Shown: one piece after another, positions 12,483 to 27,100 of the stretch
Layout: every line of letters starts with the position of its first letter
Position numbering within the stretch: position 1 is the first letter of the stretch
Assembly: GCA_900470195.1 (NCBI GenBank)
Contig: UEIJ01000009.1
Location: 124,001-188,000, forward strand
DNA from: Hyphomicrobiales bacterium
Lineage (GTDB): Bacteria; Pseudomonadota; Alphaproteobacteria; Rhizobiales; Rhizobiaceae
DNA length: 64,000 nucleotides
Direction: 5' to 3'
Made by a program: the position numbers and the translations under genes
The notes under the pieces: generated by a model
The model's input: the letters and a program-made list of their open reading frames with translations, nothing else
Database searches by the model: none
Told to the model about the DNA's origin: nothing

Positions 12483-12518
12483 CGGGGCCCGTTTTGTATG
12501 CATATTCAGAGGCACCTA

Positions 12519-13751
12519 ATGGCAGGAAGTGAACGCATTGATTTGATTGCGATCACGGAGAAACTCAATCGCTCGCCGATATTCCATATGTCGTTGGGTT
12601 CCAAAGAGTTGTTTCACTCGAACTTCATTGCATGGCTTTTAATGGCCTACCCAGACGCTGTGAACTGCTTCGATATTGATGTAACCAAGCCGTTTTCGGT
12701 TATTCGAGAACAACACAATATCGATTTAGCGCTAAAGCGTGAATGCGAGCCTCCATTTTGCATCATTGAAAACAAGTTCAAAGATATTCCGCGGCGAGCG
12801 CAATTGGAGAGATACGCCGATAAAAGCCCCGCTCATTCGCGTGTTCTTCTCACTCTGGTGCCTGCATCATTTGACGTAACCCAAATAGGTTGGCAGCAGG
12901 TTCTTTATGCCGATTTTGCCGATAGGTTAAATGGATGGCTTAATCAAAACCAGAACGTCTCATTCCGTGACCGAGAATTTGTAGCCAGCTACTGCGAGAT
13001 GACTTCGGCTATCGCTTCTATCGCGGATGCTGTATTAGTGGCGCCCAGCCAAGCGAGGGACAAAATCTACTGGTTCGGATTGACGAACGAATGGCAATGC
13101 CGTTTGGACGAAATACGCTTTCTGGATACCATATCCAAACACAGTGCCGACGAAATGCAGTTCGATCTGGAACATGCGTTGCGACTAGGTCTGCCCGATC
13201 TTGTGGTCAATCCTGATGAAAAGCAGGAAAAGGACCTCCAACGGTCTGGGGTCATCTTCTGTAAAACGTGGTCGGCGCTCTTTAACAAACAGCCGTGTGT
13301 CACGGTCGAGTTGCATCGCTGGATTGCCTCAAATCAGTTTAATCTGACGATCCAGATACAAGGGAACCAATATCGTCGGCTGATTGATTGCGATTATTTC
13401 AGAATACCACGCAGCCAAAGTGCGGTTCGCAAAAATTTTGATGCACGGGGTATAATAGAAGCCAGCGATGATTATCGCTGGTTTTTCGATCCCGATATTC
13501 ATAACGGAATCGTCAACATCACAACATGGAGCCACATCGCATCAAGTAAATTTAGGACATCGATGCGAAAGCCATTCGGCACCTACGCTCCGAAAGCTAT
13601 CTATCAGTATATTACAATCAGCGATACTCCGACTAGCGATACGTTGCACGCAAGCAAGGTTACTGCCAGCGTTATTGCTGATGTCCGCTTCGGCCTAGAG
13701 TTGCTGAATGATGAGCAATACGTACAGCGCTTTGCGAACTTAAAGCAATAG
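12519..13751 (+). CDS. PD-(D/E)XK nuclease superfamily protein
   Basis: A 410-residue protein whose N-terminal third has the pattern of the PDDEXK_4-type nucleases: SKELFHSNFIAWLL (Glu30), then Asp69 in NIDLAL, Glu84-Asn-Lys86 in CIIENKFKD, and Gln95 in AQLERYADK. These fit the D...ExK...Q active site. The remainder is unrecognised. Start ATG 12519 is preferred over ATG 12498 because AGAGG lies six bases upstream. It follows the flgE-like gene by 36 bases on the same strand, so the two may be co-transcribed. Proteins of this type are often near defence or mobile genes. Substrate unknown. Confidence 0.7.
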   Translation: MAGSERIDLIAITEKLNRSPIFHMSLGSKELFHSNFIAWLLMAYPDAVNCFDIDVTKPFSVIREQHNIDLALKRECEPPFCIIENKFKDIPRRAQLERYADKSPAHSRVLLTLVPASFDVTQIGWQQVLYADFADRLNGWLNQNQNVSFRDREFVASYCEMTSAIASIADAVLVAPSQARDKIYWFGLTNEWQCRLDEIRFLDTISKHSADEMQFDLEHALRLGLPDLVVNPDEKQEKDLQRSGVIFCKTWSALFNKQPCVTVELHRWIASNQFNLTIQIQGNQYRRLIDCDYFRIPRSQSAVRKNFDARGIIEASDDYRWFFDPDIHNGIVNITTWSHIASSKFRTSMRKPFGTYAPKAIYQYITISDTPTSDTLHASKVTASVIADVRFGLELLNDEQYVQRFANLKQ

Positions 13752-13839: not shown

Positions 13840-14283
13840 ATGTCCCATCTCAAGGCGCTTAAGCTTGCAACCGCAGCTCCCGCCCGCACGAACGACCCTG
13901 TTTTGCGGTCACGAGAAAAAATGATCGCGGCACTCTCCGAGCAGAAACTCATGGTTGCTGCGGCGCTTGAGGGTCGCAAGTATCACACCTTCCGCAAGGT
14001 TTGGCGCACGAACGCCGAAGGGCAGAAGGTCCAGACGGAGGCACTGCGACGTGTTCGTCAGGGCTGGTTCGAAGATCTTATGGGCAAGACATTTTTTGTC
14101 TTACGTTATGCTGGCAAGACCATCGAAATCGCCAAGGACAAGAACGCCATCGAGGTCAGCGAATTGAAGGCGCTGCCTGCAATTCTCGATACGTTGATCG
14201 AAGCTGTTCGCGCTGGTGAGCTTGATGCGCAACTGGCTGCGGCATCGGCAGAACGCAAGAAGCAGCTGCACAAAACTGAATAA
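13840..14283 (+). CDS. Conserved hypothetical, charged C-terminus
   Basis: 147 residues, ATG 13840 preceded by GGAAAGGA. It is soluble, with a basic middle (TFRKVWRTNAEGQKVQ) and a Lys/Glu-rich C-terminus. It resembles a family of small alphaproteobacterial proteins of unknown function (I think DUF6641, from memory). The gene lies between the nuclease-like gene and the replication region, and ends at a pair of perfect palindromes. No function can be assigned. Confidence 0.65.
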   Translation: MSHLKALKLATAAPARTNDPVLRSREKMIAALSEQKLMVAAALEGRKYHTFRKVWRTNAEGQKVQTEALRRVRQGWFEDLMGKTFFVLRYAGKTIEIAKDKNAIEVSELKALPAILDTLIEAVRAGELDAQLAAASAERKKQLHKTE

Positions 14284-14478: not shown

Positions 14479-14499
14479 AAAGTTTGTTCAACAAACTTT
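14479..14499. repeat. AAAGTTTGTT palindrome, copy 2 of 3
   Basis: Perfect 10-bp arms AAAGTTTGTT / AACAAACTTT around a single C, touching the stop codon of the replication protein gene. See 9965-9988 and 22120-22142. Confidence 0.8.
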
Positions 14500-15860
14500 C
14501 ATCGACGTCCCATACTGCCGGTCGAAGCGCCATCGCGCTGAGCGAGGGCAATGCTATGCAGACGCTCTTTCAGACTGATGACATTTCCGGCAAATTTAAA
14601 TGACCGGCCAACATCATATGCCTCATGGTTCCAAAGTTCTTCGCTCTCGTCTTCTGTCCAGTTCGTATCTGTATAAGGGTTCTTATACCTTATATCATTG
14701 ACAGAACTTCCCCAATTAATAACTCCTTCGTCTTCAACACAAATCCCATGAGCTGAGTATTCATCAAGAAAACCATCATCGACTTCGACAGCATCTGTCT
14801 GATCGAAACGGTCATCGAATGCTTCGTCGACCAATTCAATACCGTCGAGATCATCATCAGCAATGACCTGCATCTGTGATGTGCCCGGCTTGGCCGACAA
14901 ATCATTCGACGCCGAATTTGCGACACCAGCACTGGCTCTTTTGCCCTTCACGCCCAAGGAAAAGCGAAGCGACTGAAACCCCGAGTTTTTCTCGCAGAGC
15001 CATTCCGCATATGTCTTGACATCTTCAGCTGGCCACCACTTCCTGTTGGCCAGATCATATTTTCCAGAACTGCAGTTGCTATCAGCCGCCTTGAAATCCG
15101 CTTCGATACGGAACTTCAGCGCGTACTGGATCACCGATTTGATGTTGAGGCCGACCCTCTGGCTGGCCGTAAACGGTTTGATATCGACCTGATAGGCTGC
15201 GCCGTATCCGTTGTTGCGGAAGGCATCGGCGACCTCGGAAACGGAGAGTTGATCCAGCCGAACAATCGCATGAAGGTGTGGTCGCCAGATAGTCGTGTCG
15301 TCGGACCAGACCAAGGGAATGCCAAGCTGTTCCAGCGCAATCTGCGAGTTACGGCCCATTCCTTCAAAATCGCTGTACGTCATCCGGTCAGTCTCCCACC
15401 AACCGAGGATTTCGAAGTTGTCCCAGCGGCTGTCCTTCCGGCGTTTCAGGCTCACCATATTGCGAATGCGCGTTTTCTCGGTGTCGATGATATCGGAGAC
15501 ATCGGAAAGCATGGTTGCCATCGGTAAAAGGATCGTCGCGAACGCCAATTGCTCATTGGGCACGCCGACGAACCGCTGTCGTGTCGCTTGCTTTATCTGC
15601 TTGCTCCGCTCCGTCATGAAACAGCGCGGACACAATGGGATACCGCAACGCCGCATGTAGTTGGTGTCGGGATCCTCAATCCTCCCGCAGCGGGTAGCCT
15701 TTCCTCGTAGCGGATGACCGTAGCCGAGGGATTCCATCAGCACGGTCCGTTGCTGTTCGTTCCCTTCGCTGAGCCAGCGAAATCTCTTCTTGTCGTCCCG
15801 ATCAATATATCCGGGCGCGGCCCAAATCGCATTCCTTAGCTTCCACATGGCGCTCGTCAT
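14499..15860 (-). CDS. HUH-type (rolling-circle) replication initiator-like protein
   Basis: 453 residues from ATG 15860, with GGAGA upstream. A cysteine cluster (Cys58, and CGIPLCPRC at 72-80) suggests a zinc site. RPHLHAIVRL places the His-x-His of an HUH endonuclease at 195/197, and VIQYALKF supplies a candidate catalytic Tyr246 with Lys249, the YxxK motif of rolling-circle Rep proteins. The C-terminal third is acidic and probably disordered. I infer that this unit is or was a replicon (plasmid, phage or satellite) now in the chromosome. Divergent from the 15958 gene. Confidence 0.7.
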   Translation of the reverse strand: MTSAMWKLRNAIWAAPGYIDRDDKKRFRWLSEGNEQQRTVLMESLGYGHPLRGKATRCGRIEDPDTNYMRRCGIPLCPRCFMTERSKQIKQATRQRFVGVPNEQLAFATILLPMATMLSDVSDIIDTEKTRIRNMVSLKRRKDSRWDNFEILGWWETDRMTYSDFEGMGRNSQIALEQLGIPLVWSDDTTIWRPHLHAIVRLDQLSVSEVADAFRNNGYGAAYQVDIKPFTASQRVGLNIKSVIQYALKFRIEADFKAADSNCSSGKYDLANRKWWPAEDVKTYAEWLCEKNSGFQSLRFSLGVKGKRASAGVANSASNDLSAKPGTSQMQVIADDDLDGIELVDEAFDDRFDQTDAVEVDDGFLDEYSAHGICVEDEGVINWGSSVNDIRYKNPYTDTNWTEDESEELWNHEAYDVGRSFKFAGNVISLKERLHSIALAQRDGASTGSMGRR

Positions 15861-15957: not shown

Positions 15958-16248
15958 ATGAAGCTTGTAGAAATATATGCGGCCATGCACCAGGCACGCC
16001 TTACAAAATCGCAAATGGAATTCTCGACAATCTGGCTTGGTCGCAGTCCGCGCTATTATTCGTATCTGCTTGCAACCCAGCGGGAGCCGGGACTTGCAAC
16101 CCTTTGCGGTATTGCGTGGCGATTGGAACAATTTTTAGAAAACATGTCCGCAGATCATGCGGATGAATTGCTAGAACTCAAGCGTTCAATCAACGTGGAC
16201 ATTGCGCATCGATCTATTGTTGATGTTCGTGGTCGGAAGTTCCGATAG
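15958..16248 (+). CDS. Small conserved protein divergent from rep, probable regulator
   Basis: 96 residues (MKLVEIYAAMHQARLTKSQ...), with AGGATAGG just before ATG 15958. The core SPRYYSYLLATQREPGLATL matches small alphaproteobacterial proteins that I recall as DUF6626, and looks like a helix-turn-helix with the adjacent helices, though I cannot prove DNA binding. Its position opposite the rep-like gene fits a copy-control or repressor role. Terminated by the hairpin at 16282-16310. Confidence 0.6.
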   Translation: MKLVEIYAAMHQARLTKSQMEFSTIWLGRSPRYYSYLLATQREPGLATLCGIAWRLEQFLENMSADHADELLELKRSINVDIAHRSIVDVRGRKFR

Positions 16249-16391: not shown

Positions 16392-17450
16392 TTATGCCTT
16401 CATGCCAAGTGCATGGTAGAGCTTGCCACCATCGAAAAACCTGTCACCGACATTTATTGCGAGATTGCGCGCTTCTATTCGCCACCGGCCTACCTCTGCA
16501 CGGCTCAGGGCTACACGCAAGAACGCGACCAATTGCGATTTATGCCGCAAATAATTGTCCCAGTTGCTGGTCCATTCAGATGGATACAGACAATCTTCGG
16601 GATACATTTCCGAGTAGGAAAGCCGATTGGGCGCAATCGGGATTGCGCCGCAAACAAGCCCTTCCCACAATCCGATTCCAAGTGTTTCCTGCAAGCTTGC
16701 CGAAAACACGGCCACGGCTTCACCAAGCAATGTATGATATTCCGGCTTGGTTAGTTTTCGCTCCTGACAGACACGAAACTCGTAGTCTGGAAACTCGGTT
16801 GTCAGATCGCGGAAAATATCGACCTGTTTTTCCGGTGCAATGCGGTGCGGAAAGAGGACGAGTTTGCGCTTTTGCCGGTTTTGGTATGTTGCAAGCATTC
16901 CCGGCATGTACTCCATCGGCCAGCCAGCTCGTAAAATCCGGCTATCATCCTGTACTTGATGGACGCTCTTGAAAAGATCGACATGGAATTGCGTTGCAAA
17001 CACATTCACGTCAATCGCCTCAAACAGCGACCGTTCAAAATGCCGCGCCCATGTAACGTCAGGAATGCGTCCGAGGAAATCATGTGGGTCGTGGCTGGCA
17101 GCGTGCCATAGAGCAACCGTTCGGACAGGAATTTGCAGAAGATCGCTCATATAACGCAGGGCTGTAATTCCGTAATGCCATGCATCCGTAAACAGAAAGC
17201 AATCACCCGCTTTGACTACCTGCCTTTCAAACAGATCTGCGATTTCGGCAATTTGCTGCGACTTGAAGATATTTGTCGCTGCAAAATTTAAGAAGGCCCC
17301 CGGCGTCGTTTCTTGCCGGTTGGCCGTACCTTCTATGATACACACTTGCTCATTTGGTAGCGCATGACGGATTTGCTGCGGTAAATAGTGCGCCCACTCA
17401 ACCGTATACCGCTGCTGGTGCTGCTCAAGCCCGACTATATGAATTGTCAT
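16392..17450 (-). CDS. GT-B fold glycosyltransferase (GT4-like)
   Basis: 352 residues from ATG 17450. The C-terminal half has the retaining GT4-type E-x7-E motif: ETLGIGLWEGLVCGAIPIAP (Glu255 and Glu263). Before it come the PHRIAPEKQ phosphate-loop-like stretch near residue 201 and a conserved TDAWHYG at 88-94. It therefore probably transfers a sugar from a nucleotide donor. Its ATG overlaps the stop of the transporter gene by four bases (ATGA), so it is the last gene of the operon DpdA-like, transporter, glycosyltransferase. This coupling makes a nucleobase or DNA substrate plausible, but the acceptor is unknown. Confidence 0.8.
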   Translation of the reverse strand: MTIHIVGLEQHQQRYTVEWAHYLPQQIRHALPNEQVCIIEGTANRQETTPGAFLNFAATNIFKSQQIAEIADLFERQVVKAGDCFLFTDAWHYGITALRYMSDLLQIPVRTVALWHAASHDPHDFLGRIPDVTWARHFERSLFEAIDVNVFATQFHVDLFKSVHQVQDDSRILRAGWPMEYMPGMLATYQNRQKRKLVLFPHRIAPEKQVDIFRDLTTEFPDYEFRVCQERKLTKPEYHTLLGEAVAVFSASLQETLGIGLWEGLVCGAIPIAPNRLSYSEMYPEDCLYPSEWTSNWDNYLRHKSQLVAFLRVALSRAEVGRWRIEARNLAINVGDRFFDGGKLYHALGMKA

Positions 17451-17983
17451 GCTGGCTGTACCTTGGCAGACTGCTTCCACATCAAAAACGCCCAAACGAT
17501 CGTCGTGCCGATCATTTTCAGGGCTACGCCAACCATCAAGGTTTTGGCATCAAGAATGTTGAGCAAGTAGAAAAGAAGGCCGGTATCAACCGGAACGCTG
17601 ATCAGCGAAGACAGCAACATTCGCTGGAGGAATGGGCGTTTCGTAATCGAAAAGACGACATAATCGACCAGTTCCGAAACCAGAAACGCGACTACGCTCA
17701 CGAACGCGATATCAGGGCCGGCCAGCCAGTATGTTGCCAATGCTGCTGCGAGCATGACCGCCAGAACGGAATGGCCTAAATCCATCTGGGCGTAATCGCG
17801 AAATACGAACACCAAGCCGAACAGGATGATCGCGGGCGGAATGACTACACCGAATATCTCAATCGGCGCCATCCAGACCAGAAGTAGATTGCTTACGACG
17901 ATGGTTACGAAATAGAGCGCTGACCACGCAAAGCGCAATTGACGGGTGGTGGGCGCGTTCGGGTCACGATATGAAATTGTCAT
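17447..17983 (-). CDS. VUT/YhhQ family transporter, probable queuosine-precursor (preQ0/preQ1) importer
   Basis: 178 residues with about five or six hydrophobic segments and the family signature region FRDYAQMDLGHSVLAV and VAFLVSELVDYVVFS, in line with the VUT (DUF165, YhhQ) family. E. coli YhhQ imports 7-deazaguanine precursors. Placed 43 bases after the DpdA-like gene and overlapping the glycosyltransferase gene, it would supply the base that a DpdA-type enzyme inserts. Homologues are known next to dpdA genes in phages, which supports the functional link. Substrate choice is inferred. Confidence 0.8.
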   Translation of the reverse strand: MTISYRDPNAPTTRQLRFAWSALYFVTIVVSNLLLVWMAPIEIFGVVIPPAIILFGLVFVFRDYAQMDLGHSVLAVMLAAALATYWLAGPDIAFVSVVAFLVSELVDYVVFSITKRPFLQRMLLSSLISVPVDTGLLFYLLNILDAKTLMVGVALKMIGTTIVWAFLMWKQSAKVQPA

Positions 17984-18026
17984 CGTTCAAGTGCTTTCTT
18001 GCAGAAAATACGAATGGGAAATCGGG

Positions 18027-19376
18027 CTAGCCTGCTGCCAGTGTGTCGAGAAATTGCCCCCAATCCTTGGTCTTCGATTGCGGATCGGCCCAGATGTCTT
18101 CGATTGCGAAACGCAGCCCTTTGAGCAAGACGGGAATGTCCGTTTCGAACTCTTTGGGATTGTCGAAAATCCTGTTCACCTGCTTGAACACACGCAGATA
18201 GGCTTCGGCGTTGTGGTTCATGAGGATCATGATGCTATCATTGTCGAGATCGGACGAGCCGTTCGACCCGACGCAGATTTCATTGACCGCCACACGTGCG
18301 CCGACCGTCGTTGACACGGGGATCGCGTAGAGGGTCTGTCCGTCTTGGATGGCTTTACTGCCTCGCTTGGCTTTCGGGCGACGTTGTGCAATTTCCCATG
18401 CAAGCTCGTTCAGAGAGCGGGCATCCGAGGGGCTTCCCTCTTTCGGCATGGATACCGTCGAGAACGTCCATCCGGTCTTATCCAGCCGGTGGGTCACCAG
18501 CGCCTGAAATTTCGCAGCGGAAATAAATGGGCCTGCCGTGTCGAACGTGATCTGGAGATCGGGATTTATTTTGGTCACGCAGCGTTGCAGCGCGTTGAAC
18601 AGGTAGGCAATAGAGGGCGTGGAAATGCCCAATATGTGTATCCACTTCGCTGATTGCAGCAGGCCATCGTTGCGCATGTCATGAAGACGGTTGAGCAGTA
18701 ACGAAAAGGAGTTCTGGTGCGCGCCAGCAAAGGCCCAGCCTTCGAAGCCATAACCCTTCACGGCCTCGTACCATGCCTTGCTTTCCGGCTCGTTTCGTCC
18801 CTGAAGGACGTTGAGCAGTTTCGTTGCCCCCGGCTTTCGGTTTTGCACGAAATAATCGAGATTGAGCAAAGACTGTTTCAGGCAGGCATTGAAATCCAGT
18901 GACAGGTCGTTTGCCGCGCACATCGCATCGAGATTATGGCCTTCAGCTATCAGCCGCTCGGCATGCATGGCGACGTTTCCAGACGTGATGCCACCTGTGG
19001 GGAAATCCAGCGACATCGAATAGTCGGAATGTGTTTCCAGCCAGCGCAACATGCGTTCGCACGTCGGATCGCCAGTGAACTTGATCCTATTGCCCTGTAT
19101 CTGGAAGCCGCCGCTGTCACCGATGACCGTGGTCGCCTTCCGGTCACGCAGCTTCACGATGTTGTCTTCGAGTGCCGAGTTCGCCGTCTTTGCGGCCTGA
19201 CCTGCACTGTAGAGCGCATAGGGATAGTGAAACAGGCCGCTCTTCGGGTCGAGAAAGTTCAGGTCAGTTTCCAGAAACGCAAAGCTGCGCTTAAGGTGCT
19301 GCGAATATCCGAGCTTCGCAAATTCCTGACTGATCGCAGGGGTGTATATGGCATATTTTGAAGGCTTGTTAATCAT
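18027..19376 (-). CDS. dpdA: DpdA-like DNA 7-deazaguanine transglycosylase (TGT fold)
   Basis: 449 residues from ATG 19376. Its motifs line up with tRNA-guanine transglycosylases: VIGDSGGFQ (Asp87 to Gln92, the base-binding DSGGFQ), MSLDFP (Asp124), LLNVLQGR (188-194, like VQGG), FEGWAFAGAH (like the GLAVGE region), HILGISTP (like YLMGVGTP) and QITFDTAGP with Asp279 where TGT has its nucleophile in FDCVMPTR. I see no CxCxxC zinc motif, so it is not an ordinary Tgt. DpdA enzymes exchange guanine in DNA for preQ0. The reading frame extends upstream to 19889, but that part overlaps the divergent gene and has no TGT similarity. Confidence 0.78.
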   Translation of the reverse strand: MINKPSKYAIYTPAISQEFAKLGYSQHLKRSFAFLETDLNFLDPKSGLFHYPYALYSAGQAAKTANSALEDNIVKLRDRKATTVIGDSGGFQIQGNRIKFTGDPTCERMLRWLETHSDYSMSLDFPTGGITSGNVAMHAERLIAEGHNLDAMCAANDLSLDFNACLKQSLLNLDYFVQNRKPGATKLLNVLQGRNEPESKAWYEAVKGYGFEGWAFAGAHQNSFSLLLNRLHDMRNDGLLQSAKWIHILGISTPSIAYLFNALQRCVTKINPDLQITFDTAGPFISAAKFQALVTHRLDKTGWTFSTVSMPKEGSPSDARSLNELAWEIAQRRPKAKRGSKAIQDGQTLYAIPVSTTVGARVAVNEICVGSNGSSDLDNDSIMILMNHNAEAYLRVFKQVNRIFDNPKEFETDIPVLLKGLRFAIEDIWADPQSKTKDWGQFLDTLAAG

Positions 19377-19475
19377 GTCGTCCGTTAAAGAATTTTCGCA
19401 TTGGGATCGTCTGCAAATTTTTAAGGATTGCATCGTCTGATTGCGCCGGTTTGAATAAAGTGCGTGAGGCATCCA

Positions 19476-22151
19476 GTGGGAATAGCGGTTAAAAAACAAA
19501 CAATTCGCGACCAAAATTATTTCGAAGCACAGTTCGCCACGATCAAAAGTGCGGCCAGTGCATTCGAACAGTACGAGAGCAAGACAGAAAACCTGTTGCA
19601 TGTCGCGTTGGACAAGATTTTCGAGTTCGGTGAAAACATCCGCCAAGACCCGCAGGCATTCGAAAGATTCCTGAGCAGCCACGAAAAAGCCTGCAACAAG
19701 GTGACAAAAGCCAATCCCTACAATGCTCTTGTCGATCTGGCCTTTTCCGGTGAGCGGAGCAAATCGTGGCGCAGTCAGATGACCAATGTTCTCGCTCTCG
19801 CAGCGGAAACAATCGGCGATCAGCAGTTTGTCGATTGGCTCGTCAGCAACGGCGGCGTGTCGGGCTGTTACCTTCTCGCCGTCAAGCACTTTGCCCGACC
19901 GGCGACAGCCAAGGCCGAAAAGCTGCGTTCGGTCCGGTTGAATACGATATCGGAAGAGTTAAAGCGCAAGCCGATTGTAAAAACCGCTTTGCCGGGTGTC
20001 AGCCTGCCGGATGGCTTTCATCGGTCGATGCTGTTTTCGCAGGGCGGCCAGACCTTCCTTGTGGATATCCGCGAAGACGATAGCGACGCGACAATCGAAA
20101 AGTACCTGCTGGAAGCGATAGGTGACAGGGTCGTTACAACTCATCCGCTTGCTGACAAGCCGCTGTTTTCTCTGTATCGCGCCATCGATCTGATTTCCGG
20201 CACCTGCAAACTGTCATCGGCAGATCAGTTGCAATGCATTGCCATCTGGAACGAGGATGCCCAAGACGGCCCTGTTACAAAACTCCGCTTTCTTTCCGAA
20301 GCTTACAGCTTCACCAATGCCACGGTCACGCTCGCCCATGCGCTTCCCGAATTGAATGGCAAGGGACAGCGCATTCTTGATCTGGCCAAGGCCGATATCT
20401 TCCGGCAGCAGTTTCAGCAGGACACTGCTTGGACGATCCATGAGGATAATAGCGAACTGATCTTGGCCGACAACGCTAAATCCCCCACGCGTCTGACATT
20501 GTTACCGGTGTCTGACTACGCAGATAGAAAGCTTCGGCAGTGCCGCAAACTCGGATTGCGCACACGGCACTTCACGATGCTGCTGGACGCGATGCAACGC
20601 GATAGCAAGAATCTCGATATCGCGATGACCCTGTTTCAGAAGGCAAACGCGCAAAGGACGACGCTCATCTCGCGACCGAAGCGGTTCCAGTGGGTGTTTA
20701 ACGGCAAGCATATCGAACTCGGTTTCGAACAGACGTCTGGCATGATGAACACCAACTATCGGTCTGTTGCGTTCAAGGACACGACGACCACGTTGCCCCA
20801 AAACGAGCTTTTGCCTGCCGATGCGCAGGCTGTCTGGAATTCCTTCGTCGCCCATGGGGAAGACATTGGCGGATACATCGCGCACGGCGAAGTCGAAGAC
20901 GCTGCATTTTGCATTGAACATACCTTCGTCAATGGCGATACCGTGGAATACAGATCGCCGTTGATCATCGGAAGGAAGATGGACCCGACGCAGATTTGCG
21001 AACCGTTCGTTCAGGCAACCGTACCAACGCCGCCTGCACCACGAACGCCGCCGCAGGGATCAAAAGGTTCAACGCAATCGGGAAACTCCGGCGAATCTTC
21101 TGGCAAAACGAAAGCGAGTTCGACTCCTGCTAGCACTGCTACGAGTGCTACAGCCGCTCTCAATCATAGCCCCCGAAACTACGCATTGATCGAGAAGAAC
21201 CATAGAAAAAAGACGAACTTCCCGGCCACACCATTATCCTGCCGAAATGCTTTCGGAGCATTCATCACGAGCTACCTTCCCAGCGATCCAGAACAGCGCG
21301 AAAGCCGGAAATTCGATCTTGAATGGCAACTGGAATGGTGGCGACGGATGACCGACATCCCGGTTCACATCATTGCCTCGAACTGGAGCGATGAAGACGT
21401 TGCCGCAAGCAAAGAACTAGGCTTGCTGGCTGGGCATGGGGGCAACATTTCCCGCGTCGGGCCACGCATTCTCATTGAGAACCGCATCGATTGCTTCAAT
21501 CAGCTTTACATGAGCGCATTCGATTGGGGCATCATGATGGATGACGATGCCGTACTGATGCAGGCCGAGAACCATAACAGCAGCTACCGTCTGTTCTCGG
21601 AGATGGCTGAAAACGGCGTAACTGCCTACGATGGCGTTGACGTGTTCGCCCCCATTTATAGCCGGAAAGTGCCGTTCAATAAGGAGCTCAATGGCGACGG
21701 CAATCCATATACGGCCAATCACGTGTTCAAGAAGAACACCGATCTCAAAGGCAGCATGATCGTGGTAAGGAACTTTCGGAAGGAAGGCCGCGAACTGCTG
21801 CTTCCCGATCGGAGTTTCCGAACGCACGGCGAAGACACTTATCTTGCCTTGCAGGCGGTTGCGCTTGGCTATTCCACCATGACGAGTTGGAACATGGTTC
21901 TGGAGGAACTCTCCGGTAAAAGCACGTTCGCCGATGGCGACGATGACAGGACGGAAAAGATGCGGGAGGGCCATGAACAACTCGTCGCAAAATTCGGCCA
22001 GCTTGGTTTGCGCATGAAGGCAGCCTCTCATTCCCTCTATAAGAAGGAATTCGAAACCCGCTGCTGGGGCGCAAAGGCAAAACGGATAGAAGTCCCCAAG
22101 CCACACGTAGCATCGCTGGAAAAGTTCGTTGAGCGAACTTTTGCCGCATGA
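19476..22151 (+). CDS. Large fusion protein with C-terminal GT-A-like glycosyltransferase domain
   Basis: 891 residues from GTG 19476 (GAGG six bases upstream; an alternative GTG lies at 19464). The N-terminal 500 residues are unrecognised. A Pro/Ser/Thr linker (about 518-565) leads to a C-terminal domain with FGAFITSYLPSDP, IPVHIIASNW, then FDWGIMMDDDAVLM, in which Asp689-691 would be the metal- and nucleotide-sugar-binding DxD of a GT-A fold, and RTHGEDTYLALQA further on. This resembles the glycosyltransferases of DNA-modification loci and the GREB1/base-J family as I remember them. Divergent from the DpdA-like gene, with a 99-base shared promoter region. Confidence 0.65.
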   Translation: MGIAVKKQTIRDQNYFEAQFATIKSAASAFEQYESKTENLLHVALDKIFEFGENIRQDPQAFERFLSSHEKACNKVTKANPYNALVDLAFSGERSKSWRSQMTNVLALAAETIGDQQFVDWLVSNGGVSGCYLLAVKHFARPATAKAEKLRSVRLNTISEELKRKPIVKTALPGVSLPDGFHRSMLFSQGGQTFLVDIREDDSDATIEKYLLEAIGDRVVTTHPLADKPLFSLYRAIDLISGTCKLSSADQLQCIAIWNEDAQDGPVTKLRFLSEAYSFTNATVTLAHALPELNGKGQRILDLAKADIFRQQFQQDTAWTIHEDNSELILADNAKSPTRLTLLPVSDYADRKLRQCRKLGLRTRHFTMLLDAMQRDSKNLDIAMTLFQKANAQRTTLISRPKRFQWVFNGKHIELGFEQTSGMMNTNYRSVAFKDTTTTLPQNELLPADAQAVWNSFVAHGEDIGGYIAHGEVEDAAFCIEHTFVNGDTVEYRSPLIIGRKMDPTQICEPFVQATVPTPPAPRTPPQGSKGSTQSGNSGESSGKTKASSTPASTATSATAALNHSPRNYALIEKNHRKKTNFPATPLSCRNAFGAFITSYLPSDPEQRESRKFDLEWQLEWWRRMTDIPVHIIASNWSDEDVAASKELGLLAGHGGNISRVGPRILIENRIDCFNQLYMSAFDWGIMMDDDAVLMQAENHNSSYRLFSEMAENGVTAYDGVDVFAPIYSRKVPFNKELNGDGNPYTANHVFKKNTDLKGSMIVVRNFRKEGRELLLPDRSFRTHGEDTYLALQAVALGYSTMTSWNMVLEELSGKSTFADGDDDRTEKMREGHEQLVAKFGQLGLRMKAASHSLYKKEFETRCWGAKAKRIEVPKPHVASLEKFVERTFAA
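22120..22142. repeat. AAAAGTTCG palindrome, copy 3 of 3
   Basis: Perfect 9-bp arms AAAAGTTCG / CGAACTTTT around TTGAG, within the last codons of the preceding gene. It is a C/G variant of copies 1 and 2. Confidence 0.75.
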
Positions 22152-22158
22152 GCAGCGG

Positions 22159-22728
22159 TCAGAGCAAATCGACCGCCGCTTTCATCATTTCATCCCGCAC
22201 GTCGATATAACGCTGGGTTGTCGTCAAATTGCGATGCCCCGCCAGTGTCATGATGACTTTCGGACTGACGCCAGAATGTGCAAGGCGGGTAATGAACCAG
22301 CGCCGACCGCTATGCGATGTTGCGCCATCAAGGCCAGCGTGCCGATATAGTTGGCCCATCAACTGACAAAGCGTGTTGGCGGAAAATGCAGTGTGTTTTT
22401 GCGTCAGAAGCAATGGCGCATCCGGCAAACGTTCAACCTGCCATTCGCCGCAATAACGTTCGATCTCCCGGCGCAGCTTTTCGTTGACAAAAACCACTCG
22501 GGCATGACCGCCTTTGGTAATTTCAGCACGTAATCGCAATTGCGCCCGCACAAAACCATCTCCATCAAACACATCACGCACAGTCAGCGCTGCAATTTCT
22601 CCGACCCGTAATCCCGCCATATGCGACAGCATCAACGCCAGTCGATTGCGGCCTGCGTGTCGGGATTGTGCGACCACTGCAAGCAACCGTTTGAATTCCG
22701 CGTCCGTCAGCACACGCGCTTGTTTCAT
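22159..22728 (-). CDS. Short tyrosine recombinase (catalytic domain only)
   Basis: 189 residues from ATG 22728. All catalytic residues are visible: Arg41 (GLRVGE), Lys72, His139 and Arg142 in SHSGRR, His165 in LAGHRN, and Tyr174 in TQRYID. The usual N-terminal core-binding (SAM-like) domain is missing, so it belongs to the compact integrase class seen in some satellites, integrative elements and XerC-like helpers, or is a trimmed integrase. It ends seven bases beyond the convergent glycosyltransferase gene and is the outermost gene of the unit, where an integrase is expected. Confidence 0.88.
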   Translation of the reverse strand: MKQARVLTDAEFKRLLAVVAQSRHAGRNRLALMLSHMAGLRVGEIAALTVRDVFDGDGFVRAQLRLRAEITKGGHARVVFVNEKLRREIERYCGEWQVERLPDAPLLLTQKHTAFSANTLCQLMGQLYRHAGLDGATSHSGRRWFITRLAHSGVSPKVIMTLAGHRNLTTTQRYIDVRDEMMKAAVDLL

Positions 22729-25003: not shown

Positions 25004-27100
25004 CTAGGGGGTAAGGGCTAAGTCCTTCATCGGTACGATTTCGACGTCGATCAACGTGGATTCGTCTGCGTTGCGTCGCACCAGAACAACTGAATGGGCT
25101 GCGATTGCCGCTTTCATGAGTGCTGTGAAATCCTCAAGGATTGGCTCGATAGGATTATCTTGCAGTTTTACCCATTCATCGGGGAGCACAATATTATCGT
25201 ATTGCTCGTAAGTTGCCTTAATGGGCCAATCCCGATGAATGAGCCTTTCCGGTGCGAGCAAATGAACTGTCTTTTTGAATACGGCGTCATAAAGGGCATT
25301 AGTGCGGTGGGACTTTTGCTCGTAGTCGTATAGCATTTTGATTGGCTGCCCGCTCGTGTCCAAGCGTACCGCTTCTCCAGCTTTTTGCTTCTCACGCATA
25401 ACCTTTGACAATTTTTCATGTCGCGATTCATCTCCTTGTGCGAAATGCTCCATTTTCAACGGAGACACGCCAATCGACGAATGTGATGTTGCAAGATCGA
25501 ACTTGTTCGTCATTCGACCTTGCTTGTCGAATTCGTAAGCCACAATACCAAAGCCGATAATCACACGGAAACAGCGCGTATTCATGTCGAACGATATAAA
25601 GTCGATAATCTGCTTGAGTGCTTGCGCTATCTTTGAACGGCTTTCGTAGACTTTCTCGTCCGATCCGGTTTCCCATATCGTGCGCTCGCTGGCGATCCGT
25701 TCGGCAAGTGAGTTAGCGTTACGTTCTGCACTGTCCAGCGTCATTAAATCCGCGCGAAATATTTCGAGTTCGGCTTTCGTGCTGTCCTCACGGGATCGAC
25801 GGTCACTTAACTCGCGCATCAATTCGGCTCGAACTTCGTCTCTATCGGCCAATGCTGCAACTGCTATAAGGTTCTTGCGCTGCCTCTCCAATTCCGCGAG
25901 TGTGGTTTCGTGGCTCGCAATCTTCTCCTGCAATTGCTGCTTTCCGGTGGTGTTGTTCTCACGAGCGAAGGCCGAGAACGAATGAAACTCCTTCACGTGG
26001 TCGAGAATGGCGCTCTCAACCTTATCATACCGGAATTGTCCGGTTGGTCCGGTGCATGTGCCGCCACGGTAATTGTTGTCGCAACGAATGTACTTCTGAG
26101 GATTGTTTGCAGCGCCGCCCGTTTTAATGAGCATTCGGCCCTGACAATGGGCGCATGTTGCGAGCGGCCCGATTAAGTTCGTGAGCCTTTCGCCTTTTCG
26201 TCCAGCTGAATTACGAACACGCTTGTTCTTTTGCACTCGCCAGAACAGTTCCTCGTTTATCGTGGCGGGGAGATAACCGCGCAGCGCTTCGCCGTATGGT
26301 TGTGACTTTCCGTTAACGCGATGAACCGGCTGATACGTTCCGATCACCGCTTCGTTCCGTAAAATTAACCCTACCGTTGGCTGTTGCCACACACCTTTGC
26401 CCGTAAGGGTAGGGGTCTTCGCCTCATTGAGACGGCGAGTAATTACGATCTGGCCTATGCCTGCATCGGCCCATTCGTATATCTGCCGCACAGTGTCGGC
26501 ATGTTTGTTCAGCCGGTACTCATATTTGTCCGGCGCAATCTCGATTTGATCGAGCCAACGAAACATATGATGCGAAAAGCGTGTCTCACCAGCAAGCGCC
26601 CGTTTGCGTCTGCCTTCTGCTGCTCGTTGCAGTCGGTCACTCTTCGTCTGGCTCTCTTCATGTGCGCGAGACATGATTGCCAGCGACATCATTAATTGCG
26701 TCCAATTCTCGTCAACGGTCGCATCCGAGTAAACCTGCTTATCTGCAAGCGTTACAATGGTTATTCCGGCGTTGATTAGTTCGATGAACGGGCCGAGCGC
26801 ATTGCGAACTTGCAGTCGTGAAAGACGATCCAACGACTCCACGAGCAGGTAACTACCGCGTTTGATTTGTCCGCTTTGTACGAGTTGCAAAAACTGTCCA
26901 AGCGCACCGGATCGCACGTTTGCGCCAGTGTAAGCGCTGACGCCAATATCGTGCAGTGTGTCGTCCAGACGGAGGTTGTTTTCGGCTGCATATTCGCGAC
27001 TGCGTTCAAGCTGGCGACGAAGCGAATCACCCTTCAACTGCTGTTGGGTACTCATGCGCACATAAGAATATGCGGTGGGGCGAATGTCGGTTTCTTCCAT
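25004..27100 (-). CDS. Large serine recombinase
   Basis: 698 residues from ATG 27100. The N-terminal resolvase domain has YSYVRMSTQQQLKGDS with Arg15 and the nucleophile Ser17, then LLVESLDRLSR. A recombinase domain follows (RQIYEWADAGIGQIVITRRL, QPTVGLILRNEAVIG), then a zinc ribbon (CAHCQGRMLIK ... CDNNYRGGTC) and a long coiled coil (EKIASHETTLAELERQRKNL). The last 200 residues are unusual for this family and are not recognised. Such enzymes integrate and excise phages and islands. No other phage or transfer genes accompany it, so it may be a solitary mobile recombinase or the end gene of a collapsed element. Confidence 0.92.
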   Translation of the reverse strand: MEETDIRPTAYSYVRMSTQQQLKGDSLRRQLERSREYAAENNLRLDDTLHDIGVSAYTGANVRSGALGQFLQLVQSGQIKRGSYLLVESLDRLSRLQVRNALGPFIELINAGITIVTLADKQVYSDATVDENWTQLMMSLAIMSRAHEESQTKSDRLQRAAEGRRKRALAGETRFSHHMFRWLDQIEIAPDKYEYRLNKHADTVRQIYEWADAGIGQIVITRRLNEAKTPTLTGKGVWQQPTVGLILRNEAVIGTYQPVHRVNGKSQPYGEALRGYLPATINEELFWRVQKNKRVRNSAGRKGERLTNLIGPLATCAHCQGRMLIKTGGAANNPQKYIRCDNNYRGGTCTGPTGQFRYDKVESAILDHVKEFHSFSAFARENNTTGKQQLQEKIASHETTLAELERQRKNLIAVAALADRDEVRAELMRELSDRRSREDSTKAELEIFRADLMTLDSAERNANSLAERIASERTIWETGSDEKVYESRSKIAQALKQIIDFISFDMNTRCFRVIIGFGIVAYEFDKQGRMTNKFDLATSHSSIGVSPLKMEHFAQGDESRHEKLSKVMREKQKAGEAVRLDTSGQPIKMLYDYEQKSHRTNALYDAVFKKTVHLLAPERLIHRDWPIKATYEQYDNIVLPDEWVKLQDNPIEPILEDFTALMKAAIAAHSVVLVRRNADESTLIDVEIVPMKDLALTP

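Follow-up and report, generated by a model that had tools for sequence, protein, structure and literature searches.

Bacterial genomic islands that encode a DpdA enzyme are exemplified by the Dpd island of the Salmonella Montevideo type. We analysed a locus that shares the island setting and a DpdA-like enzyme but adds a VUT protein and glycosyltransferases. It lies in a 64,000-nt stretch (UEIJ01000009.1, positions 124,001-188,000; the window) of a Hyphomicrobiales genome of 5.15 Mb in 68 contigs. From its gene content and sequence relationships, we consider it likely that this module of an integrative element makes glycosylated 7-deazaguanine in DNA, with a second enzyme extending the sugar. 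The module itself is real, conserved and functionally coherent. It is not a chance assembly, because the genes for VUT, a GT-B glycosyltransferase and DpdA recur together in seven other bacterial loci, and GT-B with DpdA in many viral loci.

The phage DpdA and DpdA2 systems (phage 9g and Vibrio nt-1; Hutinet 2019) resemble the module in having an enzyme of the tRNA-guanine transglycosylase (TGT) fold, in the preQ0 genes that also accompany its phage relatives, and in an occasional VUT/YhhQ protein. However, the DpdA-like protein of the window represents a separate lineage, with nt-1 falling outside the 13 phage records that it retrieved by tblastn (E≤0.01), and here a glycosyltransferase has been added. 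The stem 'glycos' occurs 0 times in the main text of that study (PMC6884629), the accessible part of which also reports that none of its viruses yielded QueA, QueG or QueH. A deazaguanine synthesis and incorporation system was named in phage PA5oct by Iyer 2021 (PMC7824862), the available passages of which leave the adjacent glycosyltransferase unnamed; this is the same phage, and presumably the same DpdA locus, as one of the GT-B/DpdA pairs described below. As an example of a 7-deazaguanine in phage DNA, dPreQ1 amounts to 15% of deoxyguanosine in Vibrio phage 6E351A, according to the part of the report available (PMC12028318).

Two further systems place sugars on modified bases. The tRNA-queuosine mannosyltransferases (QTMAN, PF12038) are alike in profile (probability 95.5-97.6) and in adding sugar to a 7-deazaguanine nucleoside, but the window GT-B lacks a PF12038 match and its partner is of the DpdA type. 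The T-even DNA glucosyltransferases, with TAGT as the T6-type second-sugar enzyme (PMC13390438, as far as its accessible text goes), are alike in the post-replicative addition of sugar to a modified base and in having a second enzyme that extends it. The T-even base is hydroxymethylcytosine, whereas that of the module would be 7-deazaguanine. Among the titles and abstract beginnings of the Creative Commons-licensed PMC literature, a source with partial coverage of 7-deazaguanine work, we found no report of glycosylated 7-deazaguanine DNA, and a sugar-bearing 7-deazaguanine DNA pathway is probably a new combination of known kinds.

The four genes and their predicted enzymes

A first-pass annotation of this DNA had described four genes and an ATGA overlap, and the open reading frames bore it out: the GT-B start overlaps the VUT stop in the ATGA at 17450-17447. 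The genes of the module (window coordinates) are:

18027..19376, minus strand: DpdA-like transglycosylase of predicted TGT fold, 449 residues (tblastn relatives in 13 phage records, structure model, conserved Asp)
17447..17983, minus strand: VUT/YhhQ-type membrane protein, 178 residues, probable 7-deazapurine transporter (Vut_1, phrog_4899)
16392..17450, minus strand: GT-B (GT4-like) glycosyltransferase, 352 residues (conserved R/K/E residues; co-occurrence with DpdA in phages and bacteria)
19476..22151, plus strand: divergent 891-residue protein with a GTG start (open reading frame confirmed; 895 residues if the GTG at 19464 is used)
19476..21239, plus strand: N-terminal ~590 residues of the divergent protein, an element protein (27% identity over 527 residues to an Azospirillum isscasi protein)
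21240..22151, plus strand: C-terminal GT-A-like domain of the divergent protein (MMDDDAV, GEDT), probable second glycosyltransferase (relatives in Phosso and Pelagibacterium)

No Pfam model (including TGT, PF01702), PHROG, NCBIfam or PADLOC model matched the DpdA-like protein at E≤1. A structure predicted with AlphaFold2 from an alignment of 111 rows (the window protein and 110 of 148 available relatives) reached a predicted local distance difference test score (pLDDT) of 90.0 and a predicted TM score of 0.90. In a Foldseek search of the PDB, the sole match at E≤0.001 was mouse QTRT1/2 with tRNA (9hn7_A; E 2.4e-5, probability 1.00, TM 0.47/0.53). Fifteen viral structure models also matched at E≤0.001. 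They include a Vibrio nt-1 protein (6.6e-9) and two phage proteins, the 'tRNA guanine transglycosylase' of Achromobacter phage Motura (2.9e-12) and the queuine tRNA-ribosyltransferase of a Microbacterium phage (1.7e-5). Residues D87, D124, H247, G250, D279, P283 and H388 are invariant in 111/111 rows. D87 and D279, which belong to the DSGGFQ and FD motifs, are presumably the two catalytic aspartates; both motifs align with DpdA2 of phage ACP17, and the host Tgt has an FD motif at the aligned position. Judged by this model, the protein has a TGT/DpdA-type fold, in agreement with the first-pass reading of the 18027-19376 product as DpdA-like, and its relatives suggest that it acts on DNA.

The link to DpdA2 was also seen in profile comparison, where the DpdA-like family matched DpdA2 of ACP17 with a probability of 94.9 (95.2 in a separate run), while the best of 46 background open reading frames reached 1.2. 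The ACP17 and X1 proteins were provisionally assigned to DpdA2 by tblastn of the ACP17 protein to X1 and to Vibrio nt-1 (35.7% identity, 8e-38), the source from which DpdA2 was defined, as the accessible part of the original paper has it (PMC6884629). The 13 phage records matched by the DpdA-like protein (of 50,697) were Sinorhizobium jumbo phage Phosso (34%, 4e-76), Vibrio phage 2.275.O and 11 PA5oct-like Pseudomonas phages. Annotated neighbours of the gene in Vibrio 2.275.O include a 7-cyano-7-deazaguanine reductase, a vitamin uptake transporter, a queuosine biosynthesis protein and a GTP cyclohydrolase I.

Other identities for this protein were considered and set aside. An unrelated TIM barrel fits poorly, with the next barrels at E≥0.009 against 2.4e-5 for QTRT1/2 among the best 50 of 838 matches. 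An ordinary tRNA Tgt is disfavoured by the failure of PF01702 and by the presence of the host Tgt elsewhere, the only match at E≤0.001 when the genome was searched for TGT-type proteins. The protein's only matches among PDB sequences were phage gp45 spike proteins (E 0.007-0.014), which we took as chance, and its profile gave no match there.

The GT-B protein scored 15 bits (E 0.018) against Pfam GT4 PF00534, below the cut-off of 26.4, and among PDB sequences its profile matched glycosyltransferases only weakly (best E 0.025). The QTMAN N-terminal domain PF12038 gave no match at E≤1. Residues R203, K208, E255 and E263 are invariant in 14/14 aligned relatives, and we take these EX7E and R/K residues to be nucleotide-sugar motifs. 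We compared the GT-B profile with eight bacterial QTMAN proteins whose loci were available, taken from PF12038 matches in 14 of 150 phylum genomes, and with 17 control open reading frames (some of them antisense frames) from 12 GT4 loci of the genome itself, out of 18 matches. All eight QTMAN proteins gave probabilities of 95.5-97.6; the controls gave 84.2, 59.2, 56.8 and then ≤8.5. By profile, GT-B therefore stands closer to QTMAN than to ordinary GT4 enzymes, and QTMAN is the nearest named family tested.

The VUT protein passed Pfam Vut_1 (29 bits, cut-off 27.2; E 1.6e-6) and matched phrog_4899 (1.5e-27), in keeping with the VUT/YhhQ family named in the first-pass annotation, but at 29.2 bits it did not reach the TIGR00697 transporter equivalog of NCBIfam (cut-off 50.95 bits). 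Relatives of VUT stand near DpdA in loci L097, L098, L103-L107 and L008.

In the divergent protein, the GT-A-like part with its DDD motif covers no more than the final ~300 residues (starting near 21240) of the 891. It shares 40% identity with a Phosso protein of 290 residues that is annotated as a glycosyltransferase, the only match among the 50,697 phage records, and 46% with a stand-alone protein of Pelagibacterium (L103); it stands alone in both, and MDDDA and EDT are present in all three. We found no relative in three viral scans and one in 385 class genomes, that one being the window's own. The structure model, built from 2 sequences only, had a pLDDT of 43.9; the profile retrieved nothing from the PDB at E≤5, and the resemblance to phrog_842 reached an E of only 0.67. 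The domain is a probable second glycosyltransferase by its sequence. The GREB1/base-J type once suggested for it was not supported by searches of Pfam, of PHROGs or of PDB sequences. The N-terminal ~590 residues gave no Pfam match; their relative stands alone in Azospirillum isscasi (L098), and by eye similar-sized proteins occupy the same place in L104-L107, although BLAST at 1e-3 did not find them.

Recurrence in bacterial elements and viruses

We scanned 84,980 species, each represented by a single genome, with GT-B patterns and obtained 13 loci, 12 of them with DpdA and 7 also with VUT. The co-occurrence survey that the first-pass annotation had proposed thus linked DpdA, VUT and GT-B in eight alphaproteobacterial elements: those of the window, Devosia naphthalenivorans, Azospirillum isscasi, Pelagibacterium, Thalassobius, two Sulfitobacter and Shimia. 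A second probable glycosyltransferase, from one of four different families, is present in 7/8, with a Pfam glycosyltransferase match in 4/7; none was seen at the Devosia locus. The second transferases are:

GT-A-like: window (fused) and Pelagibacterium (stand-alone), no Pfam match
DUF6734: Azospirillum isscasi (2.7e-31), probably a glycosyltransferase in our own reading
GT2: Thalassobius (1.4e-12, above cut-off)
GT4: two Sulfitobacter (above cut-off) and Shimia (9.6e-5, below cut-off)

The integrase of the window is 78% identical to the A. isscasi enzyme (L098) and 52-69% identical to those at the DpdA loci L005, L104, L106 and L107. A DpdA-VUT pair without GT-B occurs on a 3.4 kb stretch in another genome of the same family, and DpdA of the window-protein type (P0001) was matched at E≤1e-5 in 4/200 related genomes, the source genome included. 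We also noted a same-genus genome (L007) with a 110-residue DpdA match, 62% identical, near a contig end on a stretch with no full-length frame. Azospirillum B510 plasmid pAB510d (L005) carries the same integrase type, a DpdA-like gene and a 579-residue protein on a stretch without VUT or GT-B.

Nineteen phage records were retrieved by tblastn of GT-B, 12 of them (11 Pseudomonas and Phosso) with P0001-type DpdA and 3 with DpdA2; seen from the other side, GT-B is present in 12/13 phage records with P0001-type DpdA. In Paride the annotated GT-B and DpdA genes overlap by one base (95895), and the matches in the other Pseudomonas records have the same spacing. GT-B is directly beside DpdA2 in ACP17 (two records) and X1, with folE, queD or queC-like and queE genes around. 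In Phosso, GT-B and the DpdA gene are some 172 kb apart, and GT-B has folE- and queE-like genes in its vicinity. PhiXhv-12, -15, -16 and Ep032 carry a GT-B relative of 25.5% identity over 60% of the query and are on neither TGT list. In the Xanthomonas phage PhiXhv-12 (L015) this relative sits beside an annotated glutamine-fructose-6-phosphate aminotransferase (GlmS) and a deacetylase, possibly another sugar pathway.

An IMG/VR scan returned at least 586 relatives of GT-B and at least 594 of DpdA, and we examined the best 80 of each. All 80 GT-B loci contain a DpdA-type or Que/FolE gene and 64 contain P0001-type DpdA; in the other 16 the GT-B frame begins ≤3.4 kb from the left end of the examined stretch. 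GT-B accompanies 59 of the 80 DpdA loci, on the same strand in 59/59, and 17 of the 21 DpdA loci without it have <3.8 kb downstream. Gene clusters within 7 kb of the 80 viral GT-B genes, scanned with Pfam by one representative each, included a phosphoribosyltransferase (62 loci), a HIT protein (36), a nucleotidyltransferase (33), an NAD-dependent epimerase with similarity to GDP-mannose dehydratase (32) and a eukaryotic-type phosphomannomutase (18). By family, the nucleotidyltransferase, epimerase and phosphomannomutase are enzyme types of sugar-nucleotide synthesis.

Several viral neighbours deserve mention. The phosphoribosyltransferase (L026:12130-12684) could salvage guanine freed by base exchange. 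Unnamed families of 156 residues (L035:9262-9729; 72/80) and 178 residues (L022:8751-9284; 68/80) flank GT-B/DpdA, as well as DpdA2/GT-B in ACP17, and are likely further parts of the phage pathway. The 156-residue protein was rejected as a QueD substitute (probability 14.3; ACP17 has both).

A proposed pathway and its alternatives

The genome encodes QueC (7.6e-58), QueF (1.1e-32) and Tgt, so preQ0 and preQ1 are likely available. In the pathway that we propose, the host would probably make these precursors for queuosine, with VUT perhaps supplementing the supply by import. The DpdA-like enzyme would then exchange guanine in DNA for a 7-deazaguanine by TGT base exchange with its two catalytic aspartates, and GT-B would add a first sugar, from a nucleoside diphosphate sugar, to the inserted base, in a step resembling the action of QTMAN on tRNA queuosine. 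A second sugar would probably be added, in the manner of the T6-type enzyme on hydroxymethylcytosine, by the second transferase, which in the window is the GT-A-like domain fused to an element protein. As a likely benefit, the DNA of the element or of the host would be shielded from restriction, a protection that phages gain from unglycosylated 7-deazaguanines. This mechanism is based on the modelled DpdA fold, the family signals of VUT and GT-B, the conserved linkage and the host precursor genes; from these we infer the DNA target, acceptor group, order of steps, sugar and benefit.

Several points weigh against this proposal. The weakest is the acceptor group. Sugar transferases usually use a hydroxyl, whereas preQ0 bears a nitrile and preQ1 an amine, and therefore an extra unseen step or an N-linked sugar would be needed. 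The QTRT1/2 match is of modest quality (13% identity, root-mean-square deviation 8.0), and the profile link is weak to the host Tgt (probability 23.6) and to DpdA2 of X1 (15.9). The GT-B relative of PhiXhv-12 (P0016), with no queuosine genes nearby, outscores QTMAN on the GT-B profile (probability 99.6); the GT-B fold family is therefore not confined to deazaguanine clusters. Assignment of the GT-A-like domain as a glycosyltransferase is tentative and draws on motifs and a depositor's annotation. GT-B is present in only 3/70 DpdA2 phage records and absent from the Vibrio 2.275.O record. The 80 viral loci were chosen for their closeness to the query, are not independent of one another and in part supplied the profiles. 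Four DpdA viral loci (L110, L111, L112 and L156) have >9 kb downstream and no GT-B, and three of them are the closest to the window protein among the viral sequences examined, which counts against universal pairing within 10 kb. Finally, the case is built from genes and models.

Animals and some bacteria glycosylate queuosine in tRNA, and the module could act on RNA in the same way, with the TGT-like enzyme exchanging tRNA guanine and the QTMAN-like enzyme glycosylating queuosine or preQ1 there. The best solved structure match, a tRNA enzyme bound to tRNA, fits this idea, as do the kinship of GT-B to QTMAN among the named families tested and the queuosine-pathway genes of the host. We nevertheless regard it as unlikely: the host already has its own Tgt, the phage relatives lie within preQ0 gene clusters, and GT-B proteins of this family also pair with DpdA2, which in nt-1 goes with dPreQ0 in DNA, according to the accessible text of PMC6884629. 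The glycosyltransferases might instead be cargo that acts elsewhere, for example on cell-surface or virion glycans, while DpdA inserts plain preQ0 or preQ1 into DNA. Surface glycosyltransferases are often carried by mobile elements, the second transferases are of mixed families, and P0016 lies in a GlmS/deacetylase cluster with no queuosine genes in 8 kb on either side. Set against this are the adjacency of GT-B to DpdA or DpdA2 in the PA5oct-like, ACP17 and X1 phages and the deazaguanine-type genes in every one of the 80 viral GT-B loci, and we think cargo quite unlikely. A free glycosylated 7-deazapurine nucleoside, exported by VUT as a secondary metabolite, seems to us very improbable. Although preQ0 feeds nucleoside antibiotics elsewhere and a VUT-type transporter might run in either direction, TGT-fold enzymes are known to act on polynucleotides, and only 1/80 of the phage GT-B loci examined contains VUT.

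If sugar-bearing 7-deazaguanine in DNA is the product, then two known DNA protections, 7-deazaguanine bases and sugar coats, are joined in one pathway, which would offer candidate enzymes for placing sugar-bearing bases in DNA and a potential explanation of restriction resistance. Relatives of its core genes occur in hundreds of viral contigs and, among cultured jumbo phages, in Paride and PA5oct for example, and the module suggests an evolutionary exchange between tRNA-queuosine enzymes and DNA-modifying enzymes. More tentatively, and with somewhat more doubt than belief, we suggest that phages and alphaproteobacterial elements of one widespread family carry sugar chains on DNA 7-deazaguanine by re-using queuosine-tRNA chemistry, and vary the outer sugar by swapping the second transferase (GT-A-like, GT2, GT4 or DUF6734), so that the DNA of each element would be coated in a distinct way against restriction enzymes that recognize modified DNA.

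The surrounding element

Genes around the module (window coordinates) include:

22159..22728, minus strand: short tyrosine recombinase (integrase), 189 residues (PF00589, 5.2e-26)
15958..16248, plus strand: DUF6626 protein, perhaps an element regulator (PF20331, 1.3e-12; relatives at DpdA loci L009, L097 and L106)
14499..15860, minus strand: candidate HUH-type Rep, 453 residues (HLH motif by eye; 43% relative at DpdA locus L009)
13840..14283, plus strand: DUF6641 element protein (PF20346, 2.3e-10; phrog_31551, 1.4e-18; relatives in L104 and L106)

The linked integrase reported earlier was upheld by its Pfam match, and with it the mobile context. The HUH Rep has its motif by eye but lacks a supporting family, as Pfam and NCBIfam gave no match and the sole PHROG match was weak (E 0.24). 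The GC content at about 12-23 kb of the window is 0.49-0.55, compared to about 0.56-0.64 in most of it; the low values run on to about 29 kb, and GC is therefore no marker of the element ends. In an empty-site comparison through the right flank, same-genus matches were too short and diverged to delimit the attachment (att) sites or the ends of the element. None of the four module proteins matched a PADLOC model at E≤1, and a plasmid search with GT-B and the 891-residue protein gave no match at E≤0.001.

Beside the element, at 12498-13751, is a PD-(D/E)XK_4 protein similar (1.8e-12) to the PDC-S26 models of candidate defence systems. A large recombinase of the serine type (25004-27100; domains Resolvase, Recombinase and Zn ribbon) begins 2.3 kb past the integrase and perhaps belongs to a second mobile element.

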